Positions 2,993-63,569 of a stretch of DNA of 64,000 bases are shown here, in pieces. This stretch comes from Gracilibacillus salinarum. Its GTDB lineage: Bacteria > Bacillota > Bacilli > Bacillales > Amphibacillaceae. The stretch is taken from assembly GCF_022919575.1 (NCBI RefSeq), contig NZ_CP095071.1, forward strand, positions 4,474,001 to 4,538,000, given 5' to 3'. Under the pieces are notes generated by a model. It did not search any database. It saw only the letters and a program-made list of their open reading frames with translations, and had not been told where the DNA came from. The first letter of the stretch is position 1. Each line of letters begins with the position of its first letter. A program made the position numbers and the translations under genes.

Positions 2993-3590
2993 CCTATAAT
3001 ATGGATTATGTAAACTAGCCATCGCTGCCAAGCATCCATATTGAGATATTTAATGTGCTGGGATACCGCTTCGGCCAACCACTCCGCATCCTGTGGGGCA
3101 CGGCTGAAGCTAACTTTGTGAAGAAGATCGCTTCACAAAGTGGATCTTCAGCGCCTGCATAAACCCGCGGGAGTCTCCGTGGTTGGCCTACGCTAGGAGT
3201 GGTACTCCACAACGTTTGTAAGAGTTAGCATATTGATCACTCATCACTATATATAACAGGAATTGAATGAATAATAACATAATGCATAGAACCACTGCTT
3301 TTAGCTGTTCCATACGTTGTAGCACTTCCCTAAAGCGTAGGAAATAGGCGGAGACTCCTCATGCCTCAGCACGAGCTGAAGATCCATTTATTTGTGCCTG
3401 TGTCTGCAAGTAACGCTTCGAAGTGAGCTTCCTCGGCACAAGGCAGCACAGATGTTATTCAAGTAGTAGCCTAGCTGAAGCCGTGCCCACAGGAATCGGA
3501 GCCTATTTCCGGAGCTTTGCAACGCAGATAAAATATTTCAAAATGACCGTTTTGCCATACAGCCTTAGTTTACATAATCCATATTATAGG
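2993..3590. repeat. Cloverleaf repeat copy E1 (~600 bp, inverted ends)
   Basis: The element is bounded by a perfect 23-bp inverted repeat (2993-3015 and 3568-3590) of the form CCTATAATATGGATTATG + TAAAC. Inside are three abutting hairpins. Stem B is GGCCAACCAC 3073-3082 with 3179-3188. Stem C is CCTACGCT 3187-3194 with 3334-3341. Stem A is AAATAGGC 3342-3349 with 3501-3508. The B tip is a short hairpin (CTTTGTGAAG/CTTCACAAAG); the A tip is the long variant. Short reading frames inside it are not kept between copies, so it is treated as non-coding. It fills the gap between the ABC operon and the prs gene. Confidence 0.85.
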
Positions 3591-3611
3591 AACTTAACTT
3601 CATGCTCCATA

Positions 3612-3643
3612 TCATTACTGCTGTGACTGCACTTATATACTTT
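3612..3643 (-). repeat. Outer flank motif of the cloverleaf repeat
   Basis: On the minus strand this reads AAGTATATAAGTGCAGT followed by CACAGCAGTAATG. Similar motifs flank the left side of the copies at 29 kb, 44 kb and 63 kb and stand alone at 26329. Here it lies beside the A side of copy E1. Confidence 0.7.
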
Positions 3644-3654
3644 ATTGATCGATA

Positions 3655-3690
3655 GAAAAAGCAGTACGATGTTTCATCGTACTGCTTTTC
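3655..3690 (-). terminator. Terminator after the PRPP synthetase gene
   Basis: A perfect stem AAAGCAGTACGATG/CATCGTACTGCTTT with a 2-3 base loop lies just past the prs stop. A/T runs on both sides make it potentially bidirectional. Confidence 0.85.
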
Positions 3691-3694
3691 ATCT

Positions 3695-4645
3695 TTACTT
3701 ATATAAAGAACTGACGGATTGTTGTTCATATAAACGGATAATGGCTTCTGCCACTACTGGTGCAACAGTCAACTGGGTTACTTTGTTTACCTGTTTTTCT
3801 TCATTTAGCGGAATTGTATTGGTAACGATCAATTCTTTAATACCGGAATCCAGGATTTTATTTACAGCAGATCCTGAAAGAACAGGGTGAGTTGTACAAG
3901 CATAAACTTGTTTTGTACCATGATTTTGTAACGATTCTGCAGTTGTTGAGATTCGATGGCCGGTATCTATAATATCGTCAATGATGATCGCTGTTTTATT
4001 TTCAACCTCACCGACAATGCTAATAGTAGATGCATTGTCCCGTGGGCCACGTCGATCGACGATGGCGATTGGAGCTTTTAACTGATCCGCTAAATGTCTA
4101 GCACGTGACACACTGCTATGATCTGGTGCTACCACAACGATATCTTCTAATTGTTTTGCATCCAGATAACTTCCGATAATTGGAACAGCGGTAATCGGGT
4201 CGACCGGAATATCAAAGAATCCTTGTGCCTGTGGGGCATGCAAGTCAATCGATATCATCCGGTGTGCACCAGCTTTTTGAATAAGATCTGCAATTAGTTT
4301 GGCAGTGATCGGCTCTCTTGCACGTGATTTGCGATCCTGGCGGGCATAGCCGTAATAAGGCATGACGACATTAATGGATCGGGCAGAAGCTCGCTTCAAT
4401 GCATCTATCATTATTAGTAATTCCATAATATGATCCTCAACTGGATCGTAAGTAGACTGAATGACAAATACATCACAGCCTCTGATACTTTCTTCAATAT
4501 TAATTTGTATTTCCCCATCACTGAACGTTTTAACAGATGATTTTCCTAAATCAATTCCGATATGTTCGACAATTTCTTCAGCAAGTGGAAGGTTTGAACT
4601 CAATGCAAATACTTTTAATTTGCTATTATGGTATGTATCATTCAA
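3695..4645 (-). CDS. prs: Ribose-phosphate pyrophosphokinase paralogue (divergent active-site loops)
   Basis: The product (316 residues) should make PRPP from ribose 5-phosphate and ATP in the cytosol. Family hallmarks are present: [33 protein letters not shown] and [17 protein letters not shown]. Several normally invariant sites differ. The PRPP-binding loop is [12 protein letters not shown] (about 223-234) instead of the usual DDxIDTAGTI. DHGGVTRAR is replaced by DHSSVSRAR (175-183). The flexible loop reads VDRRGPRDN rather than DKRRPRPN. The usual bacillar prs sits beside glmU; here the neighbours are unrelated, so this is probably a second copy. Activity is plausible but not assured. Confidence 0.88.
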
Positions 4646-4741
4646 GCAAAAGACCTCCTCATTGTTGTTGTTTCCATTCCATATTATCGCAAAAAGCCAA
4701 CTGTGTCACAAGTTATCCATCTTAGTCCGTAATATCACGAC

Positions 4742-5863
4742 TTATTTATATGCTTGTATAAGTGAGATAATTTGTTTGACTTGCTCTGATAAGAGGGCAG
4801 ATGTGTTCGACATGCATTCTGCGAGTGATAAAGGGCGATTTACGATCGAGAAACAGCCGGCAAAATGTTTGCGTAATTTTGTTGTATCTCCACCAATGCT
4901 ACCAGAAAGCAGGACAGCTGGAACATGATAATTATTGGCAAGTTCTGCTACATATCCTGGTGCTTTTCCGTATAGCGTTTGTTCATCACTCTGTCCTTCA
5001 CCAGTGATGACCAAGTCAGCCTGTTTAATAGCCTCAGGTAATGCAATTGCTTCTCCTATCAGCTTCGCCCCTGATTGCAAGCTGCCGCCAAGAGTAAGGA
5101 ATGCAAAGCCTAGACCACCGGCTGCTCCAGCACCAGCAATGTCTTTAAAAGTAGTACCCATCTGGTTCTCTATCAGTTTTGCGAATTGATCTAATGCCTG
5201 ATCATATTGACGTATTTGATCAGTTGTGGCACCTTTTTGCGGACCATATACATTGCTTGCTCCAAGCTCACCACACAACGGGTTGTCTACATCACAAGCG
5301 ATCCGTAAATCGATCTTAGCTAATCTTGGATCTAGTTTTTCCAGATTAACAGACGTGATACGCAATAAGTCCTTTCCAAATATATCTACTGTATTTCCAT
5401 CCTCGTCATAGGCCTCTAGGCCAAGCGCCTGTAATAAGCCGAGACCGCCATCATTGGTAGCACTTCCGCCTAATCCAACTATAATTTTCTTGCAGCCCTT
5501 ATCAAGTGCATCGAGTATCGCTTGACCCATTCCGTATGTAGTAGTTAAATCAGGGTTTCTTTTATCTTCTGTCACTTGATACAGTCCTGCATGCATAGCT
5601 GTTTCAATAATCGCGTTTTTTTGATCGATAATAGCGTAGCTTGTCTGAATGGTTTCACCTAACGGACCTGACGTGGACAGTTGGATTTCTTCACCTGATG
5701 AGGCGGATAAGATGGCTTCTATCGTTCCTTCGCCACCGTCTGCCATAGGTTTAGTAATAACGTTGTGATCACCTAATGCTTCAATTGCCTGTTTGATGGT
5801 TTCGGCTACATCTGTTGCGGACAGGCTCCCTTTGTATGAATCTGGTGCTACAACAATTTGCAT
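4742..5863 (-). CDS. Glycerate kinase (GlxK/GarK family)
   Basis: The 373-residue protein matches the GckA-unrelated, type-2 glycerate kinase family. It phosphorylates D-glycerate (to 2- or 3-phosphoglycerate) with ATP. It opens with VVAPDSYKGSLSATDVAE, followed by ADGGEGTIEA, GLGGSATNDGGLGLLQALG, CDVDNPLCGELGAS, AGAAGGLGFAFL and LVITGEGQSDEQTLYGKAP. All are signature segments in the expected order and the length is normal. It lies 96 bases from prs on the same strand, without a clear terminator between them, so the two could share a transcript. Confidence 0.93.
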   Translation of the reverse strand: MQIVVAPDSYKGSLSATDVAETIKQAIEALGDHNVITKPMADGGEGTIEAILSASSGEEIQLSTSGPLGETIQTSYAIIDQKNAIIETAMHAGLYQVTEDKRNPDLTTTYGMGQAILDALDKGCKKIIVGLGGSATNDGGLGLLQALGLEAYDEDGNTVDIFGKDLLRITSVNLEKLDPRLAKIDLRIACDVDNPLCGELGASNVYGPQKGATTDQIRQYDQALDQFAKLIENQMGTTFKDIAGAGAAGGLGFAFLTLGGSLQSGAKLIGEAIALPEAIKQADLVITGEGQSDEQTLYGKAPGYVAELANNYHVPAVLLSGSIGGDTTKLRKHFAGCFSIVNRPLSLAECMSNTSALLSEQVKQIISLIQAYK

Positions 5864-5951
5864 AGTTGTCCCTCCATAATTTAAAACGATTTGTTTAAAT
5901 TATACCGAAGATATCGCTTTCACACAATCGAAGTCGAAGTACAATTTATAA

Positions 5952-5983
5952 ATAAAAAAAGTGATGTACATTGACATCACTTG
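5952..5983 (-). terminator. Terminator of the small membrane protein gene
   Basis: On the minus strand AAGTGATGT-CAATGT-ACATCACTT is followed by a run of T. The stem overlaps the stop codon of the 5977-6267 gene. Confidence 0.8.
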
Positions 5984-6267
5984 GAAAACTCTACTGATTT
6001 TTTTATGATTTGTTTTTGTTTAATTGTTTTGCGCATTTCAAGCAATACGATGGTAAATGCGATATGGCCGTATACGATATTAGCAAAGAAGATACCCCAC
6101 AGCAGCATTTCGCCAGTCCCGATTCCTGCAGTCATATGCTGATAGAAGGTGTACCATGCACCAACGACCAATGGAATTTGCCCGATGGCTGTTTTTTTCC
6201 AATTATCTCCCCATAATATAAATGGTGTACAACTAAATACTAATAAAAAGATTAACAATATATCCAT
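5977..6267 (-). CDS. Small four-helix-like membrane protein, unknown
   Basis: About 96 residues with three hydrophobic segments: ILLIFLLVFSCTPFILWG, IGQIPLVVGAWYTFY and LLWGIFFANIVYGHIAFTIVLL. A basic tail follows (RKTIKQKQIIKKS). The function is not recognised. The start is ambiguous: three tandem ATG codons (first bases 6273, 6270, 6267) follow a GAGGTGAT ribosome-binding site, and a GTG at 6276 overlaps that site. The third ATG has the best spacing (8 bases from GG) and is used here. The stop codon is embedded in a strong terminator, which supports a real monocistronic gene. Confidence 0.7.
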   Translation of the reverse strand: MDILLIFLLVFSCTPFILWGDNWKKTAIGQIPLVVGAWYTFYQHMTAGIGTGEMLLWGIFFANIVYGHIAFTIVLLEMRKTIKQKQIIKKSVEFSK

Positions 6268-6520
6268 CATCATCACCTCAATGAATAAAATTTAAATCTG
6301 TAAGTGTTTACAATAATAGTATATCATAGTTGTTCATAAAGTTGTAACATTTAATTCAAAATTTAGACACAAATTTGTTAAAAAAAATTCACGATATAGT
6401 TATTGTTTCCCTTATTTGAATAAAAATAAAAGTGAATTCACGAAAAAATTTTAGAAAATGGAGAAAGCATTCAAGCCAGAAGGATGTTTATGGGGTACTA
6501 ACATTTTTTTTGCATAGAAA
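6268..6520. other. AT-rich intergenic region
   Basis: It probably holds the promoter of the small membrane gene on the minus strand. A near-palindromic GTGAATTCAC lies around 6431-6440. No gene, repeat copy or riboswitch was seen. Confidence 0.5.
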
Positions 6521-6556
6521 AAAACAGCCAGTACGTTAAAAAGTACTGGCTGTTTA
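6521..6556 (-). terminator. Terminator after ppc
   Basis: Perfect stem AAACAGCCAGTAC/GTACTGGCTGTTT with an 8-base loop, followed on the minus strand by T-rich sequence. It lies 14 bases past the ppc stop. Confidence 0.85.
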
Positions 6557-6570
6557 ATATACAGGATGGA

Positions 6571-9324
6571 TCAGCCTGTGTTGCGAAGGCCTGCTGCTAC
6601 ACCGTTTATGGTAAGCAGTGCTTCCATTAATAATTCGTCATAATGTTCACTTTCTTCACCTTCTGCACGTAATTGTGAGACAAGCTGCACTTGTAATAAG
6701 TTTAACGGATCTACTAGTGGATTACGTAGTCTTACCGAGTCCTTAATGTTAGAGCGATTATCCAACAATTCATCTTGTCCGGTAATTTTAAGAACAATGT
6801 CTTTTGTAACTTGATATTCTTCTTTAATTGCACCGAAAATGCGGGAGCTGATTTCTTTATCTTCCATCATATCCGCATAGCCCTGAGCTGTATTAATATC
6901 TGCTTTAGTTAGTGCCATTTGCAGATTATTAATAGTTGCATGGAAGAATGGCCATTGCTGATACATCTTCTGCAGTAATTCCAGGTTTCCTGTCTGATCA
7001 ATATATTGTTTGAAGCCTGTACCGGCTGCATACCAAGCTGGCAATAATTGACGGCTCTGTGTCCATGCGAATACCCATGGAATGGCGCGTAAGTCTTCAA
7101 ATCGATTGCTGCCTTTACGTTTCATTGGACGAGAACCGATATTTAAGTCGCCAAGTTCATGTAAAGGTGTCGCTTCGTTAAAGTACTGAATAAATCCTGG
7201 ATCTTCAAATACAAGGGACTGATACTTTTTCAGTGCGTATTCTGAGATAGTACTCATAGCTTCCACTTCTTCTTGGACCGGAACCATATTTTCATGGTCA
7301 TCGTTAAGTCCCATAATACCTGTTAGTAAAGTAGATGTAGCCTGCTCAAGACTGCGGTAAGCAATATCTTCTAATAAATAGCGGGAAGACAATACTTCAC
7401 CTTGCTCGGTAATTTTTACACCATCACCTAACGTAACCGCTGGTTGTGAGAGTAGACTTGAGTAAAGAGGTCCACCACCACGGCCGAGTGATCCGCCACG
7501 TCCATGGAAGTATTTTAATTTAACCCCATAGCTTGAGGCAATATCATGAATTTCTTGTTGTGCTTGATACAATTCCCAGTTAGCCGTAATATTTCCGCCG
7601 TCTTTACTGCTGTCAGAATAACCAAGCATGATCTCTTGCAAGTCACCACGAGCTTCTAAGTGTTTGCGATACAGCGGAATGTTAAATAATTTTTTAATCA
7701 TTTCCGGACCGTTCTTGAGATCATCGATTGTTTCAAGAAGGGGAGCAACATGAATTCTGCTGACAACTCTTCCATCAGGATGAACACGATATAGTCCTGC
7801 TTCTTTAGCAAGTACTAATACTTCTAATAAGTCACTCACATTATCTGTCATACTAATTAAATACACTTCAATAGCACGAAGTCCGAACGTCTCCTGTGCT
7901 CTGTTAATCATACGGAATGTATCGATGACTTCGAGCGTTTCTGGTGTGAATTCATCATAAATAGAGATCATCGGACGAGGATTCTCTAGAGTTGATGTTA
8001 ATATATTTACTTTTTCCTCTTCATCCAGAGAATTATACTCTTTGACAATGTCTACTTTTTCAAAAATTTCAGTCAACGCAGATTCATGTTCGCCACTGTG
8101 ATTACGTATATCAAGTGAGGCAAGGTGGAAACCGAATAAATCAACTTGACGAATCACTTTACGTAATAATTTAACAGGGTTATGTGTCGGATGGTGAACC
8201 TTCATGCTTTCACGGATCAGGTATAAATCTGCCAGTAACTCTTCTGATTTTGCATAACCTAGGTCATGATCTTGTTCCGTATAGTCTAATTTCTTAAGCA
8301 TTAATGATAATTTTACCCGGTACACTTCGTCTTCTTTGTGCCAGCCATTATACTGTAAAGCTTGCTGATCCTTTAAAATCGATTCTCTTAGATCTTCGCT
8401 GATTTCAATCTTAGAAACAGAATGACTGAGTCTGTCTTTTAATGTTTCTAATGACTCTTTATATTTTTTAAGTACTAATGCACGATGGTTTTTTAATGTT
8501 TCAAAAGTTGTCGTAGCTTTTACATTCGGGTTACCATCACGATCCCCGCCGATCCATGAACCAAATCGAAGGAAAGAAGGTATTTTCCAGCGATGTTTAT
8601 AGCGTTCGTACAGTAAATCCTCTAAATCGTCATGAATTTTTGGTAAAACATCAAAAAGAACCCTATCAAAATAGTAGAGGCCATTCGAAACTTCTTTCAT
8701 GACAGATGGTTTCTTTTGTCTGATTTCTTGCGTTTGCCATAAGAACGTAATTTCATTTGCAATTCGTTCCTGAAGCATTTTCTTTTCGTAACGTGTATAA
8801 GAATAGTCCCACTGTGTTAACAGGCGAGCAATTCGTTTGTGAATTTGCAGAATAGTTCGTCTCGTAGCCTCTGTTGGGTGGGCAGTCATAATAAGTTCTA
8901 GCGATAATTTCTCTAATAAGTCGGTAATTTGTTCAGGAGTTACATTGTTATCAATTAAAGTCTTTACCCCTGCTTCAAGCGAGCCAGGTTGAATAATATT
9001 CGTGTCCTGTGCCTGATATTCACGACGTCTTCTTGATCTGTAATTTTGCTCAGCGATATTAAGTAAGTGTAAGTGAATGGAAAATGCGCGAATAACCATT
9101 TTTCGTAACTCAGGCTCTAATTCACTGATTTTTTCTTTAATTTTGTTTTGTGTTGTCGTATCTTGTTTGTCTCTAGATTCGGTAGATAGTACACGTATCT
9201 CTTTTACTGTGTTTAGTAGTGCCTCTCCACCTTCGTGTAATAATACATCGTCCAGGATTTTCGATAAGTAGTCAGCGTCTTTCATTAATGAAATATTAGA
9301 TTTCTCCTCAAAGCTTGTTGCCAT
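6571..9324 (-). CDS. ppc: Phosphoenolpyruvate carboxylase
   Basis: This 917-residue cytosolic enzyme converts PEP and bicarbonate to oxaloacetate and phosphate, refilling the TCA cycle. The catalytic regions are all visible: TAHPTEATRRTILQ with the essential histidine, FGSWIGGDRDGNPNV, GYSDSSKDGGNITANWELYQ, FHGRGGSLGRGGGP, and AIPWVFAWTQSR near the C-terminus, which ends INGVAAGLRNTG as expected. The length fits bacterial PEPC. It is transcribed alone, with a terminator downstream. Many bacilli rely on pyruvate carboxylase instead, so its presence is a metabolic trait of the strain. Confidence 0.98.
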   Translation of the reverse strand: MATSFEEKSNISLMKDADYLSKILDDVLLHEGGEALLNTVKEIRVLSTESRDKQDTTTQNKIKEKISELEPELRKMVIRAFSIHLHLLNIAEQNYRSRRRREYQAQDTNIIQPGSLEAGVKTLIDNNVTPEQITDLLEKLSLELIMTAHPTEATRRTILQIHKRIARLLTQWDYSYTRYEKKMLQERIANEITFLWQTQEIRQKKPSVMKEVSNGLYYFDRVLFDVLPKIHDDLEDLLYERYKHRWKIPSFLRFGSWIGGDRDGNPNVKATTTFETLKNHRALVLKKYKESLETLKDRLSHSVSKIEISEDLRESILKDQQALQYNGWHKEDEVYRVKLSLMLKKLDYTEQDHDLGYAKSEELLADLYLIRESMKVHHPTHNPVKLLRKVIRQVDLFGFHLASLDIRNHSGEHESALTEIFEKVDIVKEYNSLDEEEKVNILTSTLENPRPMISIYDEFTPETLEVIDTFRMINRAQETFGLRAIEVYLISMTDNVSDLLEVLVLAKEAGLYRVHPDGRVVSRIHVAPLLETIDDLKNGPEMIKKLFNIPLYRKHLEARGDLQEIMLGYSDSSKDGGNITANWELYQAQQEIHDIASSYGVKLKYFHGRGGSLGRGGGPLYSSLLSQPAVTLGDGVKITEQGEVLSSRYLLEDIAYRSLEQATSTLLTGIMGLNDDHENMVPVQEEVEAMSTISEYALKKYQSLVFEDPGFIQYFNEATPLHELGDLNIGSRPMKRKGSNRFEDLRAIPWVFAWTQSRQLLPAWYAAGTGFKQYIDQTGNLELLQKMYQQWPFFHATINNLQMALTKADINTAQGYADMMEDKEISSRIFGAIKEEYQVTKDIVLKITGQDELLDNRSNIKDSVRLRNPLVDPLNLLQVQLVSQLRAEGEESEHYDELLMEALLTINGVAAGLRNTG

Positions 9325-10231: not shown

Positions 10232-10250
10232 GGTACATTCCATAAAATGT

Positions 10251-16981: not shown

Positions 16982-17048
16982 GCTCTGCATAATTACCTCA
17001 TGAAAGCGGAATTACAATATTTTAGTTTAGAAAATGAAAGTAAAGGTT

Positions 17049-17056
17049 CTTATAAT
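17049..17056. repeat. Target-site duplication, left copy (CTTATAAT)
   Basis: The eight bases are identical to 19214-19221 on the other side of the IS66 element. Eight bases is the usual IS66 duplication length. Confidence 0.9.
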
Positions 17057-17141
17057 GTAAGCGCCCAATAACGAAGTATCTATAAGAACCAATCATTCTC
17101 CTATACACTTATCTTAAGACAATTGTATAGGAGGTTTTGGA

Positions 17142-17492
17142 TTGATTGTAAATGTAGAGGATGCGAAAAGATGTTATATCGTATGTGGTAAAACGGATAT
17201 GCGCTATGGCATTGATTCATTAGCTTATACCGTCCAATCACAGTTTGACTTAGATCCATTCCAGGATGCTTTGTTTTTCTTTTGTGGGAACAAACAAGAT
17301 CGCTTTAAAGCACTCTATTGGGATGGGGAGGGTTTTTGGTTACTGTATAAGCGGTTTGAGAACGGCCAATTAAAATGGCCTCGAACCATAAGAGAAGCGA
17401 GATCATTGACGGCCCAACAAGTGGATTGGTTACTGCGTGGTTTCGCTATAGATCCGCCGATAAAAGAGGCGTCTCACCGTGTCTTTTATTAA
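17142..17492 (+). CDS. tnpB: IS66 accessory protein TnpB
   Basis: A 116-residue IS66 Orf2 protein required with TnpC for transposition. It shows the family core CGKTDMRYGIDSLAYTVQ, FFCGNKQDRFKALYWDGEGFWLLYKRFENGQLKWP and the LLRGFAI ending. It starts with TTG eight bases after an AGGAGG site. It lies 85 bases from the left end of the element and 69 bases before tnpC. Confidence 0.93.
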   Translation: MIVNVEDAKRCYIVCGKTDMRYGIDSLAYTVQSQFDLDPFQDALFFFCGNKQDRFKALYWDGEGFWLLYKRFENGQLKWPRTIREARSLTAQQVDWLLRGFAIDPPIKEASHRVFY

Positions 17493-17561
17493 CGTTTGGG
17501 TCGCCTTGTTCCCTTTCCTTTGATATACTATACGTATTAATCGAAAGAGGGAGAAACGTGT

Positions 17562-19145
17562 ATGAGTTCCGTCGATGCTTTAACGCAAGTCATCCAAGCG
17601 CAAGCGAAACAAATAGACCAATTAACGGCTCAACTCGCTCATCAAGCGAATGAGTTGAAATTGTTGCGTGAACAAGCAGAGTACTTAACGCAAAAGCTAT
17701 TTGGAAAGTCAAAAGAATCCATTCCCACAGATGATAACCAGCTTTCGTTATTTGACGCACCGGAAGCACCGGTACCCTTGGAAGAAGAAAAGGAAACCAT
17801 TACATATCATCGAAAAAAGTCTAAAGGCAGAAAACAAGCTATTTTACATCAATTTTCGGAACATCCTGTTCATCATGAACTGGTTGGGGATGCTTGTGCA
17901 TGCCCAACTTGTGAGACAACCATGAAAGAGATAGGAAGTTATCCCGTGCGAGAAGAACTGGTTTATATCCCAGCTCAGCTCAACCGGCATGTCCACTACC
18001 AACACGCCTATAAATGTGAGGGTTGTTCTCAAAAAGGAATGACAGATAAGATTGTCAAAGCGCCTGTTCCGAAAGCACCGATGGATAATAGCTTGGGTTC
18101 TGCCTCTATTATTGCTCAAACGATTCATCAGAAATTTTCGTTAAAAGTACCCGCGTACCGCCAGGAAGAGGATTGGCATCGGATGGGATTACCGATTACG
18201 CGACAACATATTACCAACTGGCATATCAAAGTCTCTCAATATTATTTAGAACCGTTTTATCAGGTATTGAAAGAAAAGCTGGTGGAACAAGATATCTTAC
18301 ATGCGGATGAAACCTCTTATCACGTATTGGAAAGTGATACAAAAAAGACGTACTACTGGACCTTTTTAAGTGGTAAACATAGCGAGCACCCCATCACCCT
18401 TTATCATCATGATGCAAGTCGGGGATCGCATGTCGCCAAAGACTTCCTCTCCCATTATAAGGGATATGTTCATTGTGATATGTGGTCCGCTTATCAAGCC
18501 TTAGAGGAGGCAGAATTAGCTGGCTGTTGGGCGCATGTACGCCGTAAATTCTGGGAAGCGATGCCGAAAGATTGTCCGGCCGATGCGGTAAGTCGACAAG
18601 GGGTAGAAGCTTGTGATCGGTTCTTTCGATATGAACGATCGTGGGAATCGCTATCACCGAACGATCGGCTGAAAAAGCGAGAAGAAGTCCTTCAACCAGA
18701 AATGGATAACTTCTTCGGTTGGTTGCGTGCACAACCCGTCCTCTCTGGCAGTAAATTAGGAACGGCCATTGAGTATGCACTGAAATATGAAGCTACTTTC
18801 CGCACTGTATTAAAAGATAATCGATTAGTGCTTGATAACAATCGAGCAGAACGTGCGATGAAAGCTTTCGTGACAGGTCGGAAAAATTGGTTGTTCAGCG
18901 CTACCTTTGAAGGAGCAAAGGCAGCAGCCGTTATCATGAGTCTCATCGAAACAGCGAAACAAAACAACCTGATTCCGGAAACCTATATTACATATTTACT
19001 TGAAGAACTACCAAACCTAGAGATCCTTGCCGATTCTGGGAAATTGGAAGCTTATTTGCCATGGCATCCGACAGTACAAGCTCGCTGCCAAAAAAATAGG
19101 AAACTGAAACGAAATGAACAGGAGCATACCCAACACATTCGCTAA
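17562..19145 (+). CDS. tnpC: IS66-family transposase TnpC
   Basis: A 527-residue DDE transposase. An N-terminal coiled coil (QIDQLTAQLAHQANELKLLREQ) leads to a cysteine-rich zinc motif (CACPTCETT and CEGCSQKG). The catalytic core then shows Asp in DILHADETSYHVLE, Asp in YVHCDMWSAYQAL, and Glu in LVLDNNRAERAMKAFVTGRKNWLFS. A C-terminal IS66_C segment ends EAYLPWHP. Full length with no frameshift seen, so the element may still be active. Confidence 0.95.
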   Translation: MSSVDALTQVIQAQAKQIDQLTAQLAHQANELKLLREQAEYLTQKLFGKSKESIPTDDNQLSLFDAPEAPVPLEEEKETITYHRKKSKGRKQAILHQFSEHPVHHELVGDACACPTCETTMKEIGSYPVREELVYIPAQLNRHVHYQHAYKCEGCSQKGMTDKIVKAPVPKAPMDNSLGSASIIAQTIHQKFSLKVPAYRQEEDWHRMGLPITRQHITNWHIKVSQYYLEPFYQVLKEKLVEQDILHADETSYHVLESDTKKTYYWTFLSGKHSEHPITLYHHDASRGSHVAKDFLSHYKGYVHCDMWSAYQALEEAELAGCWAHVRRKFWEAMPKDCPADAVSRQGVEACDRFFRYERSWESLSPNDRLKKREEVLQPEMDNFFGWLRAQPVLSGSKLGTAIEYALKYEATFRTVLKDNRLVLDNNRAERAMKAFVTGRKNWLFSATFEGAKAAAVIMSLIETAKQNNLIPETYITYLLEELPNLEILADSGKLEAYLPWHPTVQARCQKNRKLKRNEQEHTQHIR

Positions 19146-19213
19146 CCTATCTCAAGTCTAAGTTTAGCTCAGTGTTGGGTATTTTTCTATATACTTGAGT
19201 ATTGGGCGCTTAC

Positions 19214-19221
19214 CTTATAAT
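19214..19221. repeat. Target-site duplication, right copy (CTTATAAT)
   Basis: Identical to 17049-17056. It continues into ATGGTTTATG, the remainder of a cloverleaf-repeat end. Confidence 0.9.
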
Positions 19222-19311
19222 ATGGTTTATGCTCACTTTTTCTTTATATTTCGTAAAGTGATAGGGAGAATTAATGGAGTAATGCTCATTGACAAAGTAT
19301 CAAAATGAGTG

Positions 19312-25907: not shown

Positions 25908-26303
25908 ATGTCGTGTGTTGTGGAGGGGAGAATACTGAGAAAAGTTCATGATTCATTTGCAATATACATAACCATAGCAGTTAGTATTACACTGCTGATT
26001 GGTATTGGCTGGTTCGTTCTAAGCTATTATCAAGGAAAGACCGTGTTTAATCAAAATGCAATTAAAGAGTATCCCTATCATCTTCATGAAACGAAGTTAA
26101 TCTCCTCATCCTCACAAATTTCTGTTACAGAAATGAATACGGATCGGATAGAGGAATCAGAAGAAGAAGAAGAATTGGAGTCGGAAGAGCCATCTGAAGA
26201 TGCAGAGGAGCTTGATCAAGAAGAGATTGAACAAGAAAATAGCTATTATAATAACTCTTACTCAACAGATGAAAGTATCCGCCAAGATGTTTACGGTAAC
26301 TAG
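25908..26303 (+). CDS. Single-pass membrane protein with acidic tail, unknown
   Basis: Up to 131 residues: a short basic N-terminus, one transmembrane helix (IYITIAVSITLLIGIGWFVLSYY), then an extracytoplasmic part with a run of Glu (EESEEEEELESEEPSEDAEELDQEE). The ATG at 25908 has no ribosome binding site. A GGAGGGGAG site lies just inside, so initiation at the CTG of residue 10 (25935) or the adjacent ATA is possible. No homologous family is recognised. Low-complexity tail makes function assignment unsafe. Confidence 0.55.
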   Translation: MSCVVEGRILRKVHDSFAIYITIAVSITLLIGIGWFVLSYYQGKTVFNQNAIKEYPYHLHETKLISSSSQISVTEMNTDRIEESEEEEELESEEPSEDAEELDQEEIEQENSYYNNSYSTDESIRQDVYGN

Positions 26304-26328
26304 GTTAAATTTTTCTATCAGCAAATAA

Positions 26329-26359
26329 AGTATAAAAGTGCAGTTACAGCAGTAATCAC
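26329..26359 (+). repeat. Solo outer-flank motif of the cloverleaf repeat
   Basis: Reads AAGTATAAAAGTGCAGT then TACAGCAGTAATCA, the same motif that flanks the repeat copies at 29.2, 43.8 and 62.9 kb. No inverted end or hairpin module follows; instead a gene starts 18 bases later. Confidence 0.75.
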
Positions 26360-26376
26360 ACTTGTTAAAAGGTGAA

Positions 26377-29225: not shown

Positions 29226-29235
29226 TTTTAACAGA

Positions 29236-29266
29236 AAGTATAAAAATGCAGTCTCACCAGTAATCA
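29236..29266 (+). repeat. Outer flank motif left of repeat copy E2
   Basis: AAAGTATAAAAATGCAG followed by TCTCACCAGTAATCA, as beside other copies. It lies about 20 bases before the inverted end, next to the A side. Confidence 0.7.
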
Positions 29267-29285
29267 TAGTGAACATGAAGTTTCG

Positions 29286-29931
29286 TTCCTATAATATGGA
29301 TTATGTTAACAAAGGCTGTATTGCATAATGGTCATTTTGATATTGATTATCTGCTTAGCAAAGCTCCAGAAATAGGCTCCGCGTCCTGTGGGAACGGCTT
29401 CAGCTAGGCTACTACTTTGAACGACTTCTTTACTGCCTTGTGCCGAGGAAGCTTACTTCAAAGCGATAATAGTAGACACAGGCACAAACTAAGTGGATCT
29501 TCATCTCGCGCTGATTCCACGGGAGTCTCCGCCTATTTCTTACGCTTATGGGAAGTGCTACAACGTATGGAACAGCTAAAAGCAGTAATTCTAGGCATTT
29601 TTCAATAGCTATTATATATGCATACGATCAATATGCTAGCTCTTACAAAAATTGTAGAGTCCCAATTCTAGCGTAGGCCAACTACGGAGACTCCCGCGGG
29701 ATTATGCAGGCGCTGAAGATCCACAACGTCTGCACCTGCGTCTTCTAGTAACGCTTCGAAGTAGGCTTCCTCGGTGCAAGGCAGCAGAGAAGTATTTCGG
29801 GTAGTAGCCTAGCTTCAGCCGTGCCCCGCAGGACGCGGAGTGGTTGGACGGAGCGGTATCCCAGCACATTAAATATCTCAATATGGATGCTTGGCTGCTA
29901 TGGCTAGTTAACATAATCCATATTATAGGAA
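29286..29931. repeat. Cloverleaf repeat copy E2 (646 bp, perfect 25-bp inverted ends)
   Basis: The ends are perfect 25-bp inverted repeats (29286-29310 and 29907-29931): TTCCTATAATATGGATTATG then TTAAC. Order is A-C-B. Stem A uses AAATAGGC/GCCTATTT, C uses CTACAAC/GTTGTAG and the GCGTAGG arm, and B lies near the right end. Both A and B carry the long tip variant (GGCTACTAC ... GTAGTAGCC type). It is non-coding; short frames within it are not conserved between copies. Confidence 0.88.
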
Positions 29932-30041
29932 GCTCAAATAGTTGTATTCCAAAAATGACAAAGTATTTCCATTTTAATTTTTCTGGACTCATAACAATTT
30001 TTAGAAACGTATACCTTAATTAGTAGAAATTTCAGAAAGAC

Positions 30042-37884: not shown

Positions 37885-38440
37885 GATTGTATTTCCATTT
37901 GGTGATTATGACATTTTTATTGTGCGTAGCAAAGCTCCGGAGATATGCTCCGCGTCCTGTGGGCACGACTTCAGCTAGGCTACTACTTGAATTACTTCCT
38001 TCCTGCCTTGTGCAGAGGAAGCTTACTTCGAAGCGATACTTTCAGACGCGGGCACAAATGAAGTGGATCTTCAGTTCGCGCTGTTTCCACGGGAGTCTCC
38101 GCATATTTCCTACGCTTAAGGAAGTGCTACAACGCATAGAACAGCTAAAAGCAGTGGTGCTAGGCATTATACATATTAAAGATGAGGTATAGACACTAAA
38201 GGACACCGCTCAAAATACTAGCTGTATTATCAGTTGTAGAGCAAAACCATAGCGTAGGCCAACCACGGAGACTCCCGTGGGACGTGCAGGTGCTGAAGAT
38301 CCACTTTGTGAAGCGTTCTTCTTTACAAAGTTAGCTTCAGCCGTGCCCCACAGGACGCGGAGTGGTTGGACGGAGCGATATCATAACACTAAGAACGTTT
38401 CAATATGGTCTCAAGGTTTAAGAACACACATCCTGTTACT
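37885..38440. repeat. Cloverleaf repeat copy E3, ends decayed
   Basis: The interior keeps A-C-B order: AGCAAAGCTCCGGAGATATGC, CCTACGCTTAAGGAAGTGCTACAAC, GCGTAGGCCAACCACGGAG and GGAGTGGTTGGACGGAGCG. The A tip is the long variant, the B tip the short CTTTGTGAAG/CTTTACAAAG hairpin. The CCTATAATATGG ends are no longer recognisable and no CAGTCACAGCAG flank is present. Confidence 0.75.
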
Positions 38441-42230: not shown

Positions 42231-43730
42231 ATGAGCTATGTCATTGGGGTAGATTTAGGTACCAGTGCTGTCAAATTGCTATTAGTGAACAAGCAAGGGG
42301 AAGTAGTTCAGGAGGTTTCCAAGGAATACCCGCTGATCCAGGAAAAAACCGGTTACTCTGAACAAAAGCCGGAGGATTGGGTCCAACAGACGCTGGCAGG
42401 ATTACACGAGCTAGTCGAGCAGTTCGATGGAAATCCAGCAGAGATTGAAGGGTTAAGTTTCTCCGGGCAAATGCACGGATTAGTTTTATTAGATGAAAAT
42501 CAAGATGTGTTACGCAATGCAATTTTGTGGAATGATACGAGAACCACTGCTCAATGTAAAGAAATATATGATAAAGTCGGTAAAGACAAATTTATTAACA
42601 TTACTAAAAATCTAGCTTTAGAAGGATTTACGTTACCTAAACTATTGTGGGTAAAAGAGAATGAACCAGATTTATTTGCGAAAGCATCGACCTTTGTCTT
42701 ACCAAAGGATTATGTTCGTTATCGTCTGACTGGAACAATCCACATGGATTATTCAGATGCTGCCGGCACTAGCTTGCTAGATGTTGCTGATAAATCATGG
42801 AGTAAAGAAATCTGTGATGACTTAGGATTAGATGTATCGCTATGCCCTCCGTTAGTTGACTCACATGAAAATGTCGGAACAATAACATCTGAAATAGTAG
42901 CAGCAACGGGACTAACATCAGATACTAATGTATTTGCAGGCGGAGCGGATAATGCTTGTGGTGCGATCGGATCTGGGATTTTGTCAGAAGGAAAGACGTT
43001 TGCAAGCATCGGGACTTCTGGTGTTGTGCTGTCTTATGAGCCTTCCGGTGATAAAGACTACCAAGGGAAAGTCCATTATTTTAATCACGGGGAACAAGAT
43101 GCCTACTATGCTATGGGGGTTACATTAGCGGCAGGTCACAGTTTGAACTGGTTCAAAAAAACATTTGCACAGGAACTATCTTTTGATGAACTATTAACAG
43201 GTATTGGAGACGTGCCAGCAGGTGCTAATGGTTTGCTTTTTACACCGTATATAGCAGGGGAAAGAACGCCACATGATGATTCACAGATTCGCGGCAGTTT
43301 TGTTGGTATGGACAGTTCTCATACCTTGAAAGACTTTGCTCGTGCAGTTCTGGAAGGCATTACGTTTTCACTGAATGAATCGATTGCAATATTCAGAGAG
43401 AATGGAAAGCAAATTGATACGATTTATTCGATAGGTGGTGGCGCTAAGAATGCTGATTGGCTGCAAATGCAAGCAGATATTTTTAATGCCAACATTGTAA
43501 AACAAAAAAGTGAACAAGGTCCAGGAATGGGCGCAGCTATGCTCGCAGCTTATGGCTCAGGCTGGTTCTCTTCACTTAAAGAATGCGCTGATATGATATT
43601 AGAAGATGCTGAAACTTATCAGCCAATTCCGGAAAATGTAGAGAAATATCAGAGACTGTTTACTTTATACAAACAAGTTTATCAGCAAACAACGTCATTG
43701 AACGATGGCTTGATGGAATTTAGAAACTAA
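42231..43730 (+). CDS. xylB: Xylulokinase
   Basis: 499-residue FGGY kinase phosphorylating D-xylulose to xylulose 5-phosphate for the pentose phosphate pathway. Signatures are GVDLGTSAVKLLLV, LSFSGQMHGLVLLD, AILWNDTRT, MDYSDAAGTSLLDV, FAGGADNACGAIGSG and IYSIGGGAKNADWLQMQAD. GAGAGGAGTG precedes the ATG. It follows xylA, separated by a hairpin, and is closed by a terminator. Confidence 0.97.
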   Translation: MSYVIGVDLGTSAVKLLLVNKQGEVVQEVSKEYPLIQEKTGYSEQKPEDWVQQTLAGLHELVEQFDGNPAEIEGLSFSGQMHGLVLLDENQDVLRNAILWNDTRTTAQCKEIYDKVGKDKFINITKNLALEGFTLPKLLWVKENEPDLFAKASTFVLPKDYVRYRLTGTIHMDYSDAAGTSLLDVADKSWSKEICDDLGLDVSLCPPLVDSHENVGTITSEIVAATGLTSDTNVFAGGADNACGAIGSGILSEGKTFASIGTSGVVLSYEPSGDKDYQGKVHYFNHGEQDAYYAMGVTLAAGHSLNWFKKTFAQELSFDELLTGIGDVPAGANGLLFTPYIAGERTPHDDSQIRGSFVGMDSSHTLKDFARAVLEGITFSLNESIAIFRENGKQIDTIYSIGGGAKNADWLQMQADIFNANIVKQKSEQGPGMGAAMLAAYGSGWFSSLKECADMILEDAETYQPIPENVEKYQRLFTLYKQVYQQTTSLNDGLMEFRN

Positions 43731-43829: not shown

Positions 43830-43836
43830 AACAAAA

Positions 43837-43867
43837 TGTATAAAAGTGCAGTAACAGCAGTAATCAT
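43837..43867 (+). repeat. Outer flank motif left of repeat copy E4
   Basis: ATGTATAAAAGTGCAGT followed by AACAGCAGTAATCA, next to the A side of E4. Confidence 0.7.
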
Positions 43868-43879
43868 ATTGAACATGAA

Positions 43880-44394
43880 GATTAATTATGTTAACTAAGG
43901 CTTTATTGCAAAATGGTCATTTTGATATAGATTATCTGCTTAGCAAAGCTCCGGAAATAGGCTCCGCGTCCTGTGGGCACGGCTTCAGCTAACTTGGTAA
44001 AGAAAATTCTTTTCTTTACCAAGTGGATCTTCAGCTCGCGCTGATTCCACGGGAGTCTCCGCCTATTTCCTACGCTTAAGAAAAGTGCTACAACGGATGT
44101 AACAGCAAAAAGCAGTGGTTCTAGGCATTTTTCAATAGCTATTATATATGCATACGATCAACATGCTATCTCTTACAAAAGTTGTAGAGTCTACATCTTA
44201 GCGTAGGCCAACCACGTAGACTCCCGCGGGACAGGCAGGCGCTGAAGATCCACTTTGTGAAGTGATCTTCTTCACAAAGTTAGCTTCAGCCGTGCCCCGC
44301 AGGACGCGAAGTGGTTGGCCGGAGTGGTATCCCAGCACATAAATCATTTCAAAATAAACACTAAGCTGTTAGTTGTTATAATCCATATTATAGG
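43880..44394. repeat. Cloverleaf repeat copy E4
   Basis: Left end shortened (TTATGTTAAC only); right end ATAATCCATATTATAGG. Stem A: AAATAGGC 43955-43962 with GCCTATTT 44061-44068. Stem C: CCTACGCT 44069-44076 with 44200-44207. Stem B: GGCCAACCAC 44206-44215 with 44311-44320. The three stems abut with no spacer. Tips are short hairpins: CTTGGTAAAGAAAA/TTTTCTTTACCAAG (A) and CTTTGTGAAG/CTTCACAAAG (B). Confidence 0.85.
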
Positions 44395-44452
44395 TAGTTG
44401 TATATTATGTTGTTCATTAGACTGGCTGGCTCCACGTTAGGGATATTTCTGG

Positions 44453-57825: not shown

Positions 57826-57844
57826 GCAATGTTAATGATCCTAT

Positions 57845-57877: not shown

Positions 57878-57913
57878 AAATATGTTGGAAGATTAGAAAA
57901 GGTGGTTAGTTGA

Positions 57914-58702: not shown

Positions 58703-58732
58703 ATGAAATGATAAAAAGAAAGGGGTTTGACA

Positions 58733-59431: not shown

Positions 59432-59461
59432 CATAATTACAAATGGAAAGTGCGGTGTAGT

Positions 59462-62400
59462 ATGAAAAATCAACTGTTATTATTTAATGATAATTGGTTA
59501 TTTGCTAAAACTGATGTAGACGTTACGAATAGTTCATTACCAGACTTTAAGCCGGTGGATATTCCACATGATTGGCTTATTTACGATGCAAATCAATTAT
59601 ATGAAAATAGCATAGGATGGTATAAGAAAGGCTATCATTTTAATGGATCGAGTAAAGAAGTACTATTGACTTTTGATGGGGTTTACATGGATTCTGTGTT
59701 GTATGTTAACGATCAGCAGGTGGGTGAGTGGAAGTATGGTTATTCCAGATTTGAACATAACATCACCCCATATCTTCAGGAAGGTAACAACACGATTTTA
59801 TTAAAAGTTACCTACAAAAGTCCGAATAGCAGATGGTACACAGGTGCTGGTATCTATCGGAATGTGTGGTTAAAAGAAAGAAGTGCTAATTATATAGAAA
59901 CAGATGGTATCTATGTATCTTCTTTTAAACAGAAGGACGTTTGGAAGTTAGCTATTGAAACAAGTGTTTTTGCCGCAGAGTCACTAACAGTAAACCATGA
60001 ACTAATAAGAAATGGGGAAGTAATGAATACATATTCAGGTGAAGTATCGGTGGGAAGGGGTGTGGAAAAGGCAGAACTAACCATTAAAGACCCTTTTGTT
60101 TGGAGTGTGGAATCACCTCATTTGTATCAACTGGATACTTCTATAAGTGTGAATGGTACTGTCATTGAAATGATTTCCCAACGAATTGGATTTAAAGAAG
60201 TGACATTAGATCCAGACAAAGGCTTTTTTCTTAATGGACAACACATGAAGTTAAATGGTGTTTGTGAGCATCATGATTTGGGAGCTTTAGGCGCAGCTTT
60301 TAACCCGGTAGCATTGAAAAGAAGGTTAGAGATCTTAAAGGACATGGGTGTGAATGCAATTCGGACTGCACATAATATGCCGGCTAAGGAATTGATGGAT
60401 CTAGCAGATGAGATGGGATTCCTGATCGTTTCAGAAGCGTTTGATATGTGGGAAAGACCGAAGACACCTTATGATTATGCCCGTTTTTTTAAAGACTGGG
60501 CATACGTTGATATTAAAAGTTGGGTGAAACGTGATCGAAATCATGTCAGTTTAATTATGTGGAGCATTGGTAATGAGATCTATGATACGCATGCGGATGA
60601 ACAAGGGCAGCGAATAACAGAGAAGCTGGTGAATTACGTTCAGGAATTTGATCCAGAAAAAAACGCAGTGATAACAATCGGATCTAACTATATGCCATGG
60701 GAAAATGCACAGAAATGCGCAGATATAGTGAAAATCGCTGGTTATAATTATGCTGAAAAATATTATGATAGGCATCATCAAGCGCATCCCGATTGGGTAA
60801 TATATGGGAGTGAAACAGCTTCTACCGTTCAAAGTAGAGGTATTTATCATTTTCCTTTTGAGAAATCAATCTTAACAGATGATGATCAACAGTGTTCAGC
60901 TCTAGGTAACAGTGCCACAAGCTGGGGCGCCAAATCTGCAGAAGCATGTATACTCGCTGAACGGGATACCCCCTTTTCGCTAGGCCAATTTATTTGGACT
61001 GGATTTGATTATATTGGTGAACCAACACCATATCATACTAAAAATTCCTATCTTGGACAGATTGATACTGCAACATTTCCGAAAGACTCCTATTATATTT
61101 ATCAGGCTGCATGGACCGATTATAAAAAAGCGCCGATGGTTCATATTTTTCCTTATTGGGATTTTAATAATGGGCAACTCATTGATGTGAGGGCCTGCTC
61201 GAATGCCCCCAAAGTTGAGCTGCAATTTAATGGAGAAACAATAGGAACTTTTCATACCAATTATCAAAATGGTAATCAGTTGACAGGCTGGTGGAAGCTG
61301 CCATATGAGGATGGCACTGTTACTGCACTGGGTTACGATGAAGATGATAACATCATTGCAACAGAAAGCAGGCACTCTTTTGGTGAAGCAAAGACGATGA
61401 AATTAACTCCTGACAAATTGACAATGGAGGCGGATGGTACAGATTTAATTTTTGTTGAGATCACGATGGAAGATGAAGCAGGCAATCCGGTAGAGAATGC
61501 GGCGAACAGGGTCGATGTTCAAGTTTCAGGGGCCGGTCGATTAATCGGTTTGGATAATGGTGACAGTACTGATTATGACCAATACAAGGGAACAAGCAGG
61601 CGATTATTTAGTGGAAAATTGATGGCAATTATTGCGGCAAGATTACAACCGGGCGAAATCGAAATGGAAGTAACATCGGAAGGCATACCTGCCGAGAAAT
61701 TAGTTATGCAGTCTATTGTGACAGAAAAAGATGTTACAGGTGTATCAGCAAATATGGAAAATAAACACGTCCCAGTCGTAATGGGGAACGAAAAAGAAAT
61801 CCCTGTTCGCAACATAAAAATTCACAGTGAAGAGGGGCAACACTTGAATGATCAACAACAAGACTTGATTGTCAGTGCGTCGGTTCAGCCATCCAATGCC
61901 TCTTATCAGGAATTGGAGTGGAGTGTCGTTACAGATACCGGAATCACCTCTAATATAGCAACCCTCGAAGCTTTCGGTAATAGAGCCAAGATTACTGCAT
62001 TTGGTGACGGCACTTTCCGTGTTCGCTGTACAAGTACCAATGGCACCAGCAACATTAGGATTATTTCGGAATTGGAATTTCATGCAGAAGGAATTGGCAC
62101 AGCTTATAAAGATCCATATGATTTTGTTTCAGCCGGTCTTTTTGATTATAGCGAAGGGGATTTAGGAAATGGAAACGAACGAGGCGTTGCCACAAGCAGA
62201 GACGGTGTTACGGTAGTTACTTTTCATGATATCAACTTCGGTTCAATTGGATCAGAACAGATAACTGTACCGATCTTTGCATTATCCAGTGAGGAATATC
62301 CATTGCAAATATGGGAAGGTGTTCCTGGTGGCGAGAAAAGTGAATTATTAGCTGATGCAATCTATCAGAAGCCTTCCAAATGGAATGTCTATCAATCTGA

Positions 62401-62866
62401 AACCTTCCAATTAACACGCAGGATCAAAGGAATTAGATCGTTATCGTTCGTCACCACCAAAAAAATGCATATCAAAGGTTTCCAATTTACGGAGGCGAAT
62501 CGAGCGTTAGATTGGAATTTAGCGGCAGAAGCGGATCATATTTATGGTGATCGTTATCGGATCGAGAATGATACAGTTGAACAGATCGGCAATAACGTAT
62601 CATTAACGTTTGAGCGATTTGATTTTGGTGAAAAAGGAGTGACTAAGATTGCTATAACGGGCCATTCTCCGATTGAAAAAAATACCATTCATATTCGACT
62701 TGAAGGTGATCAACGTGAAAGTGATCAAATTATAGAGTTTTCTTTTTCAGAAGATTACCAGGAGAGAATATTTGCTCTCGAGCATGTTCACGGAGTACAG
62801 AATGTCACGTTTTTATTCTTGCCTGGCTCCGATTTTCACTTCCGCGCTTTCCGCTTTATTGAATAG
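59462..62866 (+). CDS. GH2 beta-galactosidase/glucuronidase-like enzyme, multidomain
   Basis: 1134 residues, no signal peptide, so intracellular. Order: N-terminal jelly roll (FNDNWLFAKTD, IPHDWLIYD, GVYMDSVLYVND), immunoglobulin-like domain, TIM barrel (to about residue 530), then DUF4982-like and other beta domains. The C-terminal ~300 residues form two further beta-sandwich modules. Catalytic Glu372 lies in LIMWSIGNEIYD and Glu451 in WVIYGSETASTVQSRG. Long DUF4982-type GH2 enzymes act on galactosides or uronides; the exact substrate is unknown. Last gene of importer operon 2, closed by a terminator. Confidence 0.9.
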   Translation: MKNQLLLFNDNWLFAKTDVDVTNSSLPDFKPVDIPHDWLIYDANQLYENSIGWYKKGYHFNGSSKEVLLTFDGVYMDSVLYVNDQQVGEWKYGYSRFEHNITPYLQEGNNTILLKVTYKSPNSRWYTGAGIYRNVWLKERSANYIETDGIYVSSFKQKDVWKLAIETSVFAAESLTVNHELIRNGEVMNTYSGEVSVGRGVEKAELTIKDPFVWSVESPHLYQLDTSISVNGTVIEMISQRIGFKEVTLDPDKGFFLNGQHMKLNGVCEHHDLGALGAAFNPVALKRRLEILKDMGVNAIRTAHNMPAKELMDLADEMGFLIVSEAFDMWERPKTPYDYARFFKDWAYVDIKSWVKRDRNHVSLIMWSIGNEIYDTHADEQGQRITEKLVNYVQEFDPEKNAVITIGSNYMPWENAQKCADIVKIAGYNYAEKYYDRHHQAHPDWVIYGSETASTVQSRGIYHFPFEKSILTDDDQQCSALGNSATSWGAKSAEACILAERDTPFSLGQFIWTGFDYIGEPTPYHTKNSYLGQIDTATFPKDSYYIYQAAWTDYKKAPMVHIFPYWDFNNGQLIDVRACSNAPKVELQFNGETIGTFHTNYQNGNQLTGWWKLPYEDGTVTALGYDEDDNIIATESRHSFGEAKTMKLTPDKLTMEADGTDLIFVEITMEDEAGNPVENAANRVDVQVSGAGRLIGLDNGDSTDYDQYKGTSRRLFSGKLMAIIAARLQPGEIEMEVTSEGIPAEKLVMQSIVTEKDVTGVSANMENKHVPVVMGNEKEIPVRNIKIHSEEGQHLNDQQQDLIVSASVQPSNASYQELEWSVVTDTGITSNIATLEAFGNRAKITAFGDGTFRVRCTSTNGTSNIRIISELEFHAEGIGTAYKDPYDFVSAGLFDYSEGDLGNGNERGVATSRDGVTVVTFHDINFGSIGSEQITVPIFALSSEEYPLQIWEGVPGGEKSELLADAIYQKPSKWNVYQSETFQLTRRIKGIRSLSFVTTKKMHIKGFQFTEANRALDWNLAAEADHIYGDRYRIENDTVEQIGNNVSLTFERFDFGEKGVTKIAITGHSPIEKNTIHIRLEGDQRESDQIIEFSFSEDYQERIFALEHVHGVQNVTFLFLPGSDFHFRAFRFIE

Positions 62867-62873
62867 ATCAGTC

Positions 62874-62910
62874 AAGCTGTTATCATTTATAAGTGGTAAC
62901 AGCTTTTTTA
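62874..62910 (+). terminator. Terminator after the GH2 gene
   Basis: AAGCTGTTA/TAACAGCTT stem with a T run, 8 bases past the stop. Confidence 0.85.
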
Positions 62911-62919
62911 AAAAGTCAA

Positions 62920-62954
62920 AAAAGTACATAAGCGCAGTCACAGCAGCAAACTAT
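62920..62954 (+). repeat. Outer flank motif left of repeat copy E5
   Basis: AAGTACATAAGCGCAGT followed by CACAGCAGCAAAC. Here the flank is next to the B side of the element, unlike other copies. Confidence 0.65.
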
Positions 62955-62970
62955 TGAACAAGAAGTTGAG

Positions 62971-63569
62971 TTCCTATAATATGGATTATGTCTACTAGCC
63001 ATTGCTAGCCGAGCATCCATATTGAGATATTTAATGTGCTGGGATACCACTCCGGCCAACCACTTCGCGTCCTGCGGGGCACGGCTGAAGCTAGGCTACT
63101 ACCCGAAATACTTCTCTGCTGCCTTGCACCGAGGAAGCCTACTTCGAAGCTTTACTAGTAGACGCAGGTGCAGACGTTGTGGATCTTCAGCACCTGCATA
63201 ATCCCGCGGGAGTCTACGTGGTTGGCCTACGCTAGGTTAAGGACTCTACAACTTCTGGAAGAACTAGCATATTGGTCGCTGCATTTATAACAGCAATTGA
63301 ATAAAAAACAAATGTCTAGAACCACTGCTTTTTGCAGTTACATAAGTTGTAGCACTTCCCTCAAGCGTAGGAAATATGCGGAGACTCCCGTGGAATCAGC
63401 GCGAGCTGAAGATCCATTTAGGAAAGAAAAGAAATTTCTTTCCTAAATTAGCTGAAGCCGTGCCCACAGGACGCGGAGCTTATTTCCGGAGCTTTGCTAA
63501 GCTGATAATCTATATCAAAATGACCATTTGGCAACACAGTTCTACTTAACATAATCCATATTATAGGAA
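62971..63569. repeat. Cloverleaf repeat copy E5 (interior in opposite orientation to flank)
   Basis: Inverted ends: TTCCTATAATATGGATTATG (62971) and its complement ending at 63569. Interior order is B-C-A. B: GGCCAACCAC 63054-63063 with 63218-63227, long tip. C: CCTACGCT 63226-63233 with 63364-63371. A: AAATATGC 63372-63379 with GCTTATTT 63478-63485, tip TTTAGGAAAGAAA/TTTCTTTCCTAAA. It fills the gap between the GH2 and GH3 genes. Confidence 0.85.

Follow-up and report, generated by a model that had tools for sequence, protein, structure and literature searches.

In Acinetobacter, segments lying between inverted 28-bp XerC/XerD sites, apart from the main dif site, were named dif modules, pdif modules or xrs cassettes (PMC12907356, PMC11705084, PMC6449649, PMC13141974). 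These modules have a gene cargo, come mostly from plasmids and cluster in arrays, and their central regions often diverge. The present analysis concerns a 64,000-nucleotide stretch of the Gracilibacillus salinarum chromosome (NZ_CP095071.1, positions 4,474,001 to 4,538,000, hereafter the window) and a family of elements found in it, mostly 430-650 bp long including their end sites and shortened down to 65 bp in some copies. The inverted ends of these elements are, judged by their sequence, dif-like Xer sites, which XerC and XerD putatively bind. As in the Acinetobacter modules, an inverted pair of Xer sites bounds each segment; the gene cargo is lacking, hundreds of non-coding copies are dispersed on the chromosome and their cores mostly agree. 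Dif modules are the nearest known kind.

Integrative mobile elements exploiting Xer (IMEX) include phages such as CTX-phi, which also have two inverted dif-like sites able to pair in single-stranded DNA (PMC5357621). The elements described here have no phage genes, are spread over the chromosome instead of being integrated at the host dif, and each of their ends resembles a complete site. Miniature inverted-repeat transposable elements (MITEs) and bacterial interspersed repeats such as BOX, RUP and bcr are short, non-coding, high-copy and intergenic and have inverted ends. The present family shares all of these traits and differs by its Xer-like ends, by an interior that lies either way in a fixed frame and in that no partner transposase has been found to date. 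For the mba locus of Ureaplasma, recombinases of the XerC/CodV/RipX type were proposed to invert DNA at short inverted repeats (PMC3599477); such phase-variable Xer-type inversions concern single gene-bearing loci, whereas here a dispersed non-coding family has dif-like ends. No such non-coding family with Xer ends was found in a literature search whose scope excluded most subscription papers.

Comparison of the sequences makes it fairly probable that the elements are dispersed non-coding modules with Xer-site ends, the interior of which would be inverted by the host XerC and XerD. The consensus of 168 ends (84 elements) is that of dif, derived from 28 genomes, at 21 of the 22 arm positions, and the sole difference falls on the D-arm position at which dif itself varies most. 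The layout is that of a Xer site of 28 bp, an 11-bp arm, a 6-bp centre and an 11-bp arm, with looser outermost positions; by analogy with dif, we take the XerC-type arm to point outward and the XerD-type arm inward. The core hexamer is TATGGA in the element ends vs TATATA in dif. The most informative 28-mer of the ends falls in the dif register (41.7 bits, compared with 41.6 and 41.5 one base aside), and the end arms and core are conserved far better than the flanking sequence. The transposase recognising the ends that the preliminary description of this stretch suggested is therefore not supported.

The dif site is taken as single per chromosome, and its single occurrence was used to locate it (PMC3025954). 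A dif search in 31 genomes, allowing up to 3 mismatches, gave one site in 26 of them, none in 3, 85 in the source genome (G000) and 6 in a collinear sister species (G011, hereafter the sister genome), with 0 in the controls. All of the additional dif-like sites listed in these two genomes have an altered centre, and the own dif-type site of the source genome occurs once, at 530032-530059. When a looser pattern was applied to 17 genomes of the genus, sites were abundant in three, namely the source genome (235 + 257, total 492), the sister genome (163 + 157, total 320) and a third member of the genus (G007; 60 + 68, total 128); reversed-pattern controls gave 0, 9 and 2, and the other 14 genomes 0-5. 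The end motif itself is present at 256 + 249 sites with up to 2 mismatches in the 4.8-Mb source genome (reversed pattern, 0 + 0), and two other patterns totalled 456 and 492 sites. In the third genome, the ends that were read carry CCGATAA, the C-arm form of its own dif; as GATAA was preset in one of the pattern searches, this observation comes mainly from three loci. The element-end pattern is also matched exactly in one viral contig, IMGVR_UViG_3300002460_000243 (L250 10982-11002).

The source genome seems to encode both XerC and XerD, with a XerD gene at 394.7 bits (cut-off 329.6) and a second Xer-like open frame of 302 amino acids (aa). These XerC/XerD-type genes coexist with a full-length gene for a XerS-type recombinase (402.5 bits, cut-off 267), which adjoins the single dif (L122 343-1431, G000:C1 528863-529921). 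XerS was considered as the driver and rejected, as it passes the cut-off only in the source genome and G004 among the 17 genomes of the genus.

Between the two sites, hairpins A, C and B together make up a quasi-palindromic interior, A and B being inverted relatives. Outside the sites lies a frame common to many copies in the genome, composed of a left arm of ~58 bp, which starts immediately after an intrinsic terminator, and a right arm of ~57 bp, ending in its own terminator; the copies in the window display the left arm only. Among the 64 of 84 elements whose left arm could be placed, an upstream intrinsic terminator was found within 90 nt in 46 and within 25 nt in 45, most commonly 7 nt from the AAGAAAG mark (18 copies). 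Within 25 nt, the counts for four control stretches were 1, 0, 1 and 1 of 64, while a terminator anywhere in 90 nt was present in 24/64 of an antisense control vs 46/64 for the copies. The elements of the source genome come from 90 loci, some of them selected for an exact right end, and from 4 window stretches. Left-arm and right-arm marks are concordant in all 44 copies having both, and the interior lies in the same sense as the frame in 29 elements and in the opposite sense in 41 (p = 0.19 vs 1:1; 70 of 84 scored, 14 unscored). Similarly, in the sister genome the frame marks agree in 8/8 copies and the interiors divide into 9 same and 9 opposite (18 of 47 elements scored, 29 unscored). Out of 15 places shared by the two genomes that were looked at, 10 were readable in both, and the interiors are opposite in 5 of these. 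Interiors lying either way in the frame, together with dif-like ends, suggest that Xer enzymes flip the elements. The preliminary description mentions neither the frame, nor its position after terminators, nor the variable sense of the interior.

The sequences of the cores lead to the same proposal. For the core-match test, the selection of sites relied on seven bases of the C arm and six of the D arm and left the core out of account. In the sister genome, the hexamer is identical between the two ends of an element in 30/51 cases vs 14.2 expected (p = 1e-4), and agreement between the ends is seen at each of core positions 14-16 (p = 0.0002 each), while the variable arm positions 1, 2, 4, 6, 24 and 27 show no matching. 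A separate comparison of the third core base in this genome used 43 of 47 elements. Matching of the core but not of most variable arm positions, which either disagree or differ in a regular way, is what Xer strand exchange would require. In the source genome, the hexamer is identical in 59/93 pairs vs 51.9 expected (p = 0.0003; one of the end comparisons there covered 74 of 84 elements). For the third genome, 14 of 21 listed pairs match vs 5.1 expected, in sites preselected at up to 1 mismatch.

In the mechanism that we propose, the XerC and XerD of the cell would bind both ends of an element and exchange strands, thereby inverting the interior, an exchange that we infer because the two cores of one element agree. 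The private core, TATGGA, may keep the element sites from recombining with dif. More tentatively, the framed unit could spread whole into places behind terminators, Xer acting only afterwards, which would make dispersal a process separate from Xer inversion. The broader proposition, that the family represents a genome-wide class of Xer-invertible selfish palindromes which took on the host dif with a private hexamer, spread behind terminators and, with cores matched inside each element, can be flipped yet stay insulated from dif, appears evenly balanced to us; halving the site counts puts the estimated multiplication of such a class at 60-250 copies, in three or more species of a single genus. 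If true, a repeat family exploits a house-keeping recombinase, not a transposase, for at least one rearrangement. Hundreds of near-dif pairs in one genome provide a natural experiment on how core identity, FtsK and local topology make Xer sites active or inert, and the size of the family would let Xer inversion be measured locus by locus.

Several observations weigh against inversion by Xer. Arm positions match between the ends as well: positions 7 and 19 in the sister genome (p = 0.007 and 0.02), 3, 6, 24, 25 and 27 in the source genome (p 0.004-0.03) and 6, 24 and 28 in the third genome. Consequently, core matching is less telling in the source genome, and the matching of arms in the source and third genomes slightly lowers confidence in the Xer reading as a whole. 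Core matching could in part stem from subfamily descent, and the pairs taken from loci of the third genome match in 7/18 cases vs 5.6 expected (p = 0.21). In the source genome, an end other than TATGGA is present in 24 of 96 pairs and the two ends are identical in only 1 of these 24; these changed cores look like decay. The likeness to dif has its own limits, as the outermost arm positions (e.g., 2, 4, 27 and 28) are looser than in dif and the variability of the ends, taken position by position, has no significant correlation with that of dif (rho 0.34, p = 0.12). About four of the ten orientation comparisons between the source and sister genomes depend on weak marks, and left-arm subtypes differ at the aligned shared sites, which means that the opposite interiors could also result from independent insertions into a common hot spot. 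In addition, orientation is associated with the left-arm subtype (p = 0.02, in one of seven segments tested), and ~490 sites have left no clear trace of recombination between elements, L058 being the sole copy with a left-arm score at each side. Finally, Xer cassettes on Acinetobacter plasmids were not excised and cleavage mostly required FtsK, according to PMC11705084.

Flipping might also proceed without any site-specific recombinase, through homologous recombination or a template switch during replication, acting across the inverted ends and the quasi-palindrome, with homogenisation of the ends. Template switching between inverted repeats with short spacers has a described precedent in yeast genes, where it causes both spacer inversion and arm homogenisation (PMC8604942). 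The element is itself a giant imperfect palindrome, and the several arm positions that match beyond expectation in the source genome are what homogenisation would give. This route nevertheless seems rather unlikely to us: hairpins A and B are no more similar within one copy than between copies (p = 0.81 and 0.74; 39 copies), hence the palindrome as a whole has not been homogenised, and the variable arm positions beside the matched core of the sister genome are mostly free. The end regions of one copy are likewise no more similar to each other than those of different copies (p = 0.15; 39 copies). Moreover, template switching leaves the likeness of the ends to dif unexplained.

Alternatively, orientation could be set at insertion, the interior and its two sites entering the frame either way by Xer cassette insertion or exchange and then staying, with entry as folded single-stranded DNA, as for CTX-phi, being a possible variant. 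The left-arm and interior subtypes are uncorrelated, as this would predict (Mantel r -0.11 to 0.08, p 0.23-0.85; 33 of 84 elements, as for all subtype correlations), the two ends pair with each other in the predicted fold of the copy at 29286, and the shared sites with opposite interiors differ in left-arm subtype. We judge this scenario quite unlikely, since some of the interior segments are indeed correlated with the right arm (r 0.16-0.32, p 0.01-0.05) and no empty frame, made of left arm, one site and right arm, was seen at 60 loci, which were all chosen for an intact right site and not by a genome-wide search.

The history of insertion was followed by comparison with the sister genome, which is collinear with the source genome (82-91% identity in 33 of 37 blocks). 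The copy at 2993 is absent from the orthologous place, where the flanks join behind a shared terminator, and no target site duplication is visible at this place, the clearest empty/filled pair; four others are blurred by further differences or remnants. This absence, with the hundreds of copies, supports the suggestion of the preliminary description that the element is non-autonomous and mobile, here as a dispersed family. In other members of the genus, the three-hairpin interior recurs with inverted ends that are not dif-like, a further point that disfavours the Xer reading; as relatives share the interior with other ends, the dif-like ends are probably younger than the interior. These other ends read TCGTAGTA-GATATA-TACTGCGA at some loci of G015 and are palindromic in G010 and G014; loci with the same interior and other ends are L034, L036, L041 and L042, together with loci of G002 and G004.

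Such relatives would also be compatible with an ordinary MITE of a DDE transposase, the terminal repeats of which would descend from a dif site that was captured, with no present role for the Xer arms. The non-coding interior, the inverted ends, the hundreds of copies and the single copy absent from its orthologous place all fit a MITE. Against it stand the lack of a visible target duplication at the clearest empty site and the far better conservation of end arms and core than of flanks. An autonomous parent copy was sought in three long interiors, among further ones that exist, and these gave only insertion sequence (IS) and group II intron inserts: an IS3-type (rve/HTH) transposase, an IS110-type transposase and, at two loci, a group II intron reverse transcriptase. 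These genes are probably later inserts, and no parent transposase was present among them. We consider the MITE explanation very unlikely. The reverse transcriptase, of 442 aa, lies within two element interiors (L119 7292-8620 and L120 5852-7180).

The interior had initially been described as a cloverleaf. In the copy at 43880, hairpins A, C and B do fold singly where they had been placed (-48.4, -30.3 and -66.0 kcal/mol, respectively) and a cloverleaf is possible, but the minimum-energy fold as RNA is one long hairpin (-208.1 vs -176.8 kcal/mol for a cloverleaf-type fold), because A and B are inverted relatives. Fold z-scores reach -18.5 for the copy at 29286 as RNA (20 shuffles) and -11.7 for the copy at 43880 as DNA. 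The preliminary description had also asked for a covariance check, whose outcome was mixed: among 39 aligned interiors (A1; 58 full-length ones were available), double changes occur in 7 of 81 predicted pairs, a number that 500 column shuffles never reached (mean 1.7), but the covariation term is close to 0 (0.24). In Rfam, the window had no match at gathering score, group II intron models included, and the copy at 29286 none at E <= 1. A plasmid search gave one weak match to a hairpin, in Radiobacillus kanasensis, and a phage search none. A family of structured RNA genes with incidental DNA ends would account for the stable fold and for the double changes, but is most improbable given the lack of an Rfam match, the covariation term, the interior lying either way in the frame and the promoter-like sites around the copy at 29286, which do not exceed shuffle level; we accordingly propose no promoter in the left arm.

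The features of the window are listed in Table 1. All five copies of the preliminary description are present (E1 to E5, at 2993, 29286, 37885, 43880 and 62971), and none contains an open reading frame (ORF) of at least 120 aa, which agrees, for frames of this length, with its claim that no conserved reading frame exists. Inverted ends had been ascribed to all of them, whereas both are intact in only three (2989/3594, 29284/29933 and 62969/63571). E4 has kept its right site, with 3 mismatches, the left one being reduced to its inner part, and no end site was found for E3 at up to 7 mismatches. Regarding the two additional ends reported, that at 1-70 is indeed a right-hand site (4 mismatches), while 17045/19214 represents a single end into which an IS66 element has inserted (transposase 17562-19145), with CTTATAAT flanking both sides.

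Table 1. Coordinates of element features in the window (g, left outer arm; mismatches are to the end consensus)
Feature	Position	Strand	Remark
Right dif-like site of a copy starting left of the window	46..73	-	
E1 dif-like Xer site	2989..3016	+	1 mismatch
E1 quasi-palindromic interior	3017..3566	-	+ strand order of hairpins B, C, A; missing from the orthologous place in the sister genome
E1 second dif-like Xer site, inverted	3567..3594	-	
E1 left outer arm (g)	3591..3648	-	behind the terminator of minus-strand ORF 3695-4645
Degenerate single end with IS66 insert	17045..19236	+	flanked at each side by the 8-bp repeat CTTATAAT
E2 left outer arm (g)	29233..29287	+	
E2 dif-like Xer site	29284..29311	+	3 mismatches
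E2 interior	29312..29905	+	
E2 second dif-like Xer site, inverted	29906..29933	-	
E3 interior	37885..38408	+	end sites unrecognisable; remnant in the sister genome at the same place in opposite sense
E4 left outer arm (g)	43832..43887	+	behind the terminator of ORF 42231-43730
E4 interior	43888..44370	+	hairpins A 43955-44068, C 44069-44205, B 44206-44320; element of the sister genome here in opposite sense
E4 right dif-like Xer site	44371..44398	-	left counterpart without outer arm and core
E5 left outer arm (g)	62915..62972	+	
E5 dif-like Xer site	62969..62996	+	2 mismatches
E5 interior	62997..63543	-	sense opposite to the E5 outer arm
E5 second dif-like Xer site, inverted	63544..63571	-	

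The left arm also occurs alone in the window, at 26324-26364, with no recognised element and shortly after an ORF ending at 26303. Elsewhere, a second repeat family, o (ATAAGTCAAGAAAGTATAAATTTTGGGC...), has the same left-edge motif and often stands in tandem after the terminator of an element, downstream of the right arm (L030, L060, L067 and L095). A third family, p (GTAGGAAAGTATAAAATTTTAGC...), found at L056, L086, L102 and L109, resembles them at its left edge and apparently has a terminator as its end. The occurrence of several repeats with a shared left-edge motif behind terminators hints at a shared machinery for terminator-directed spreading.

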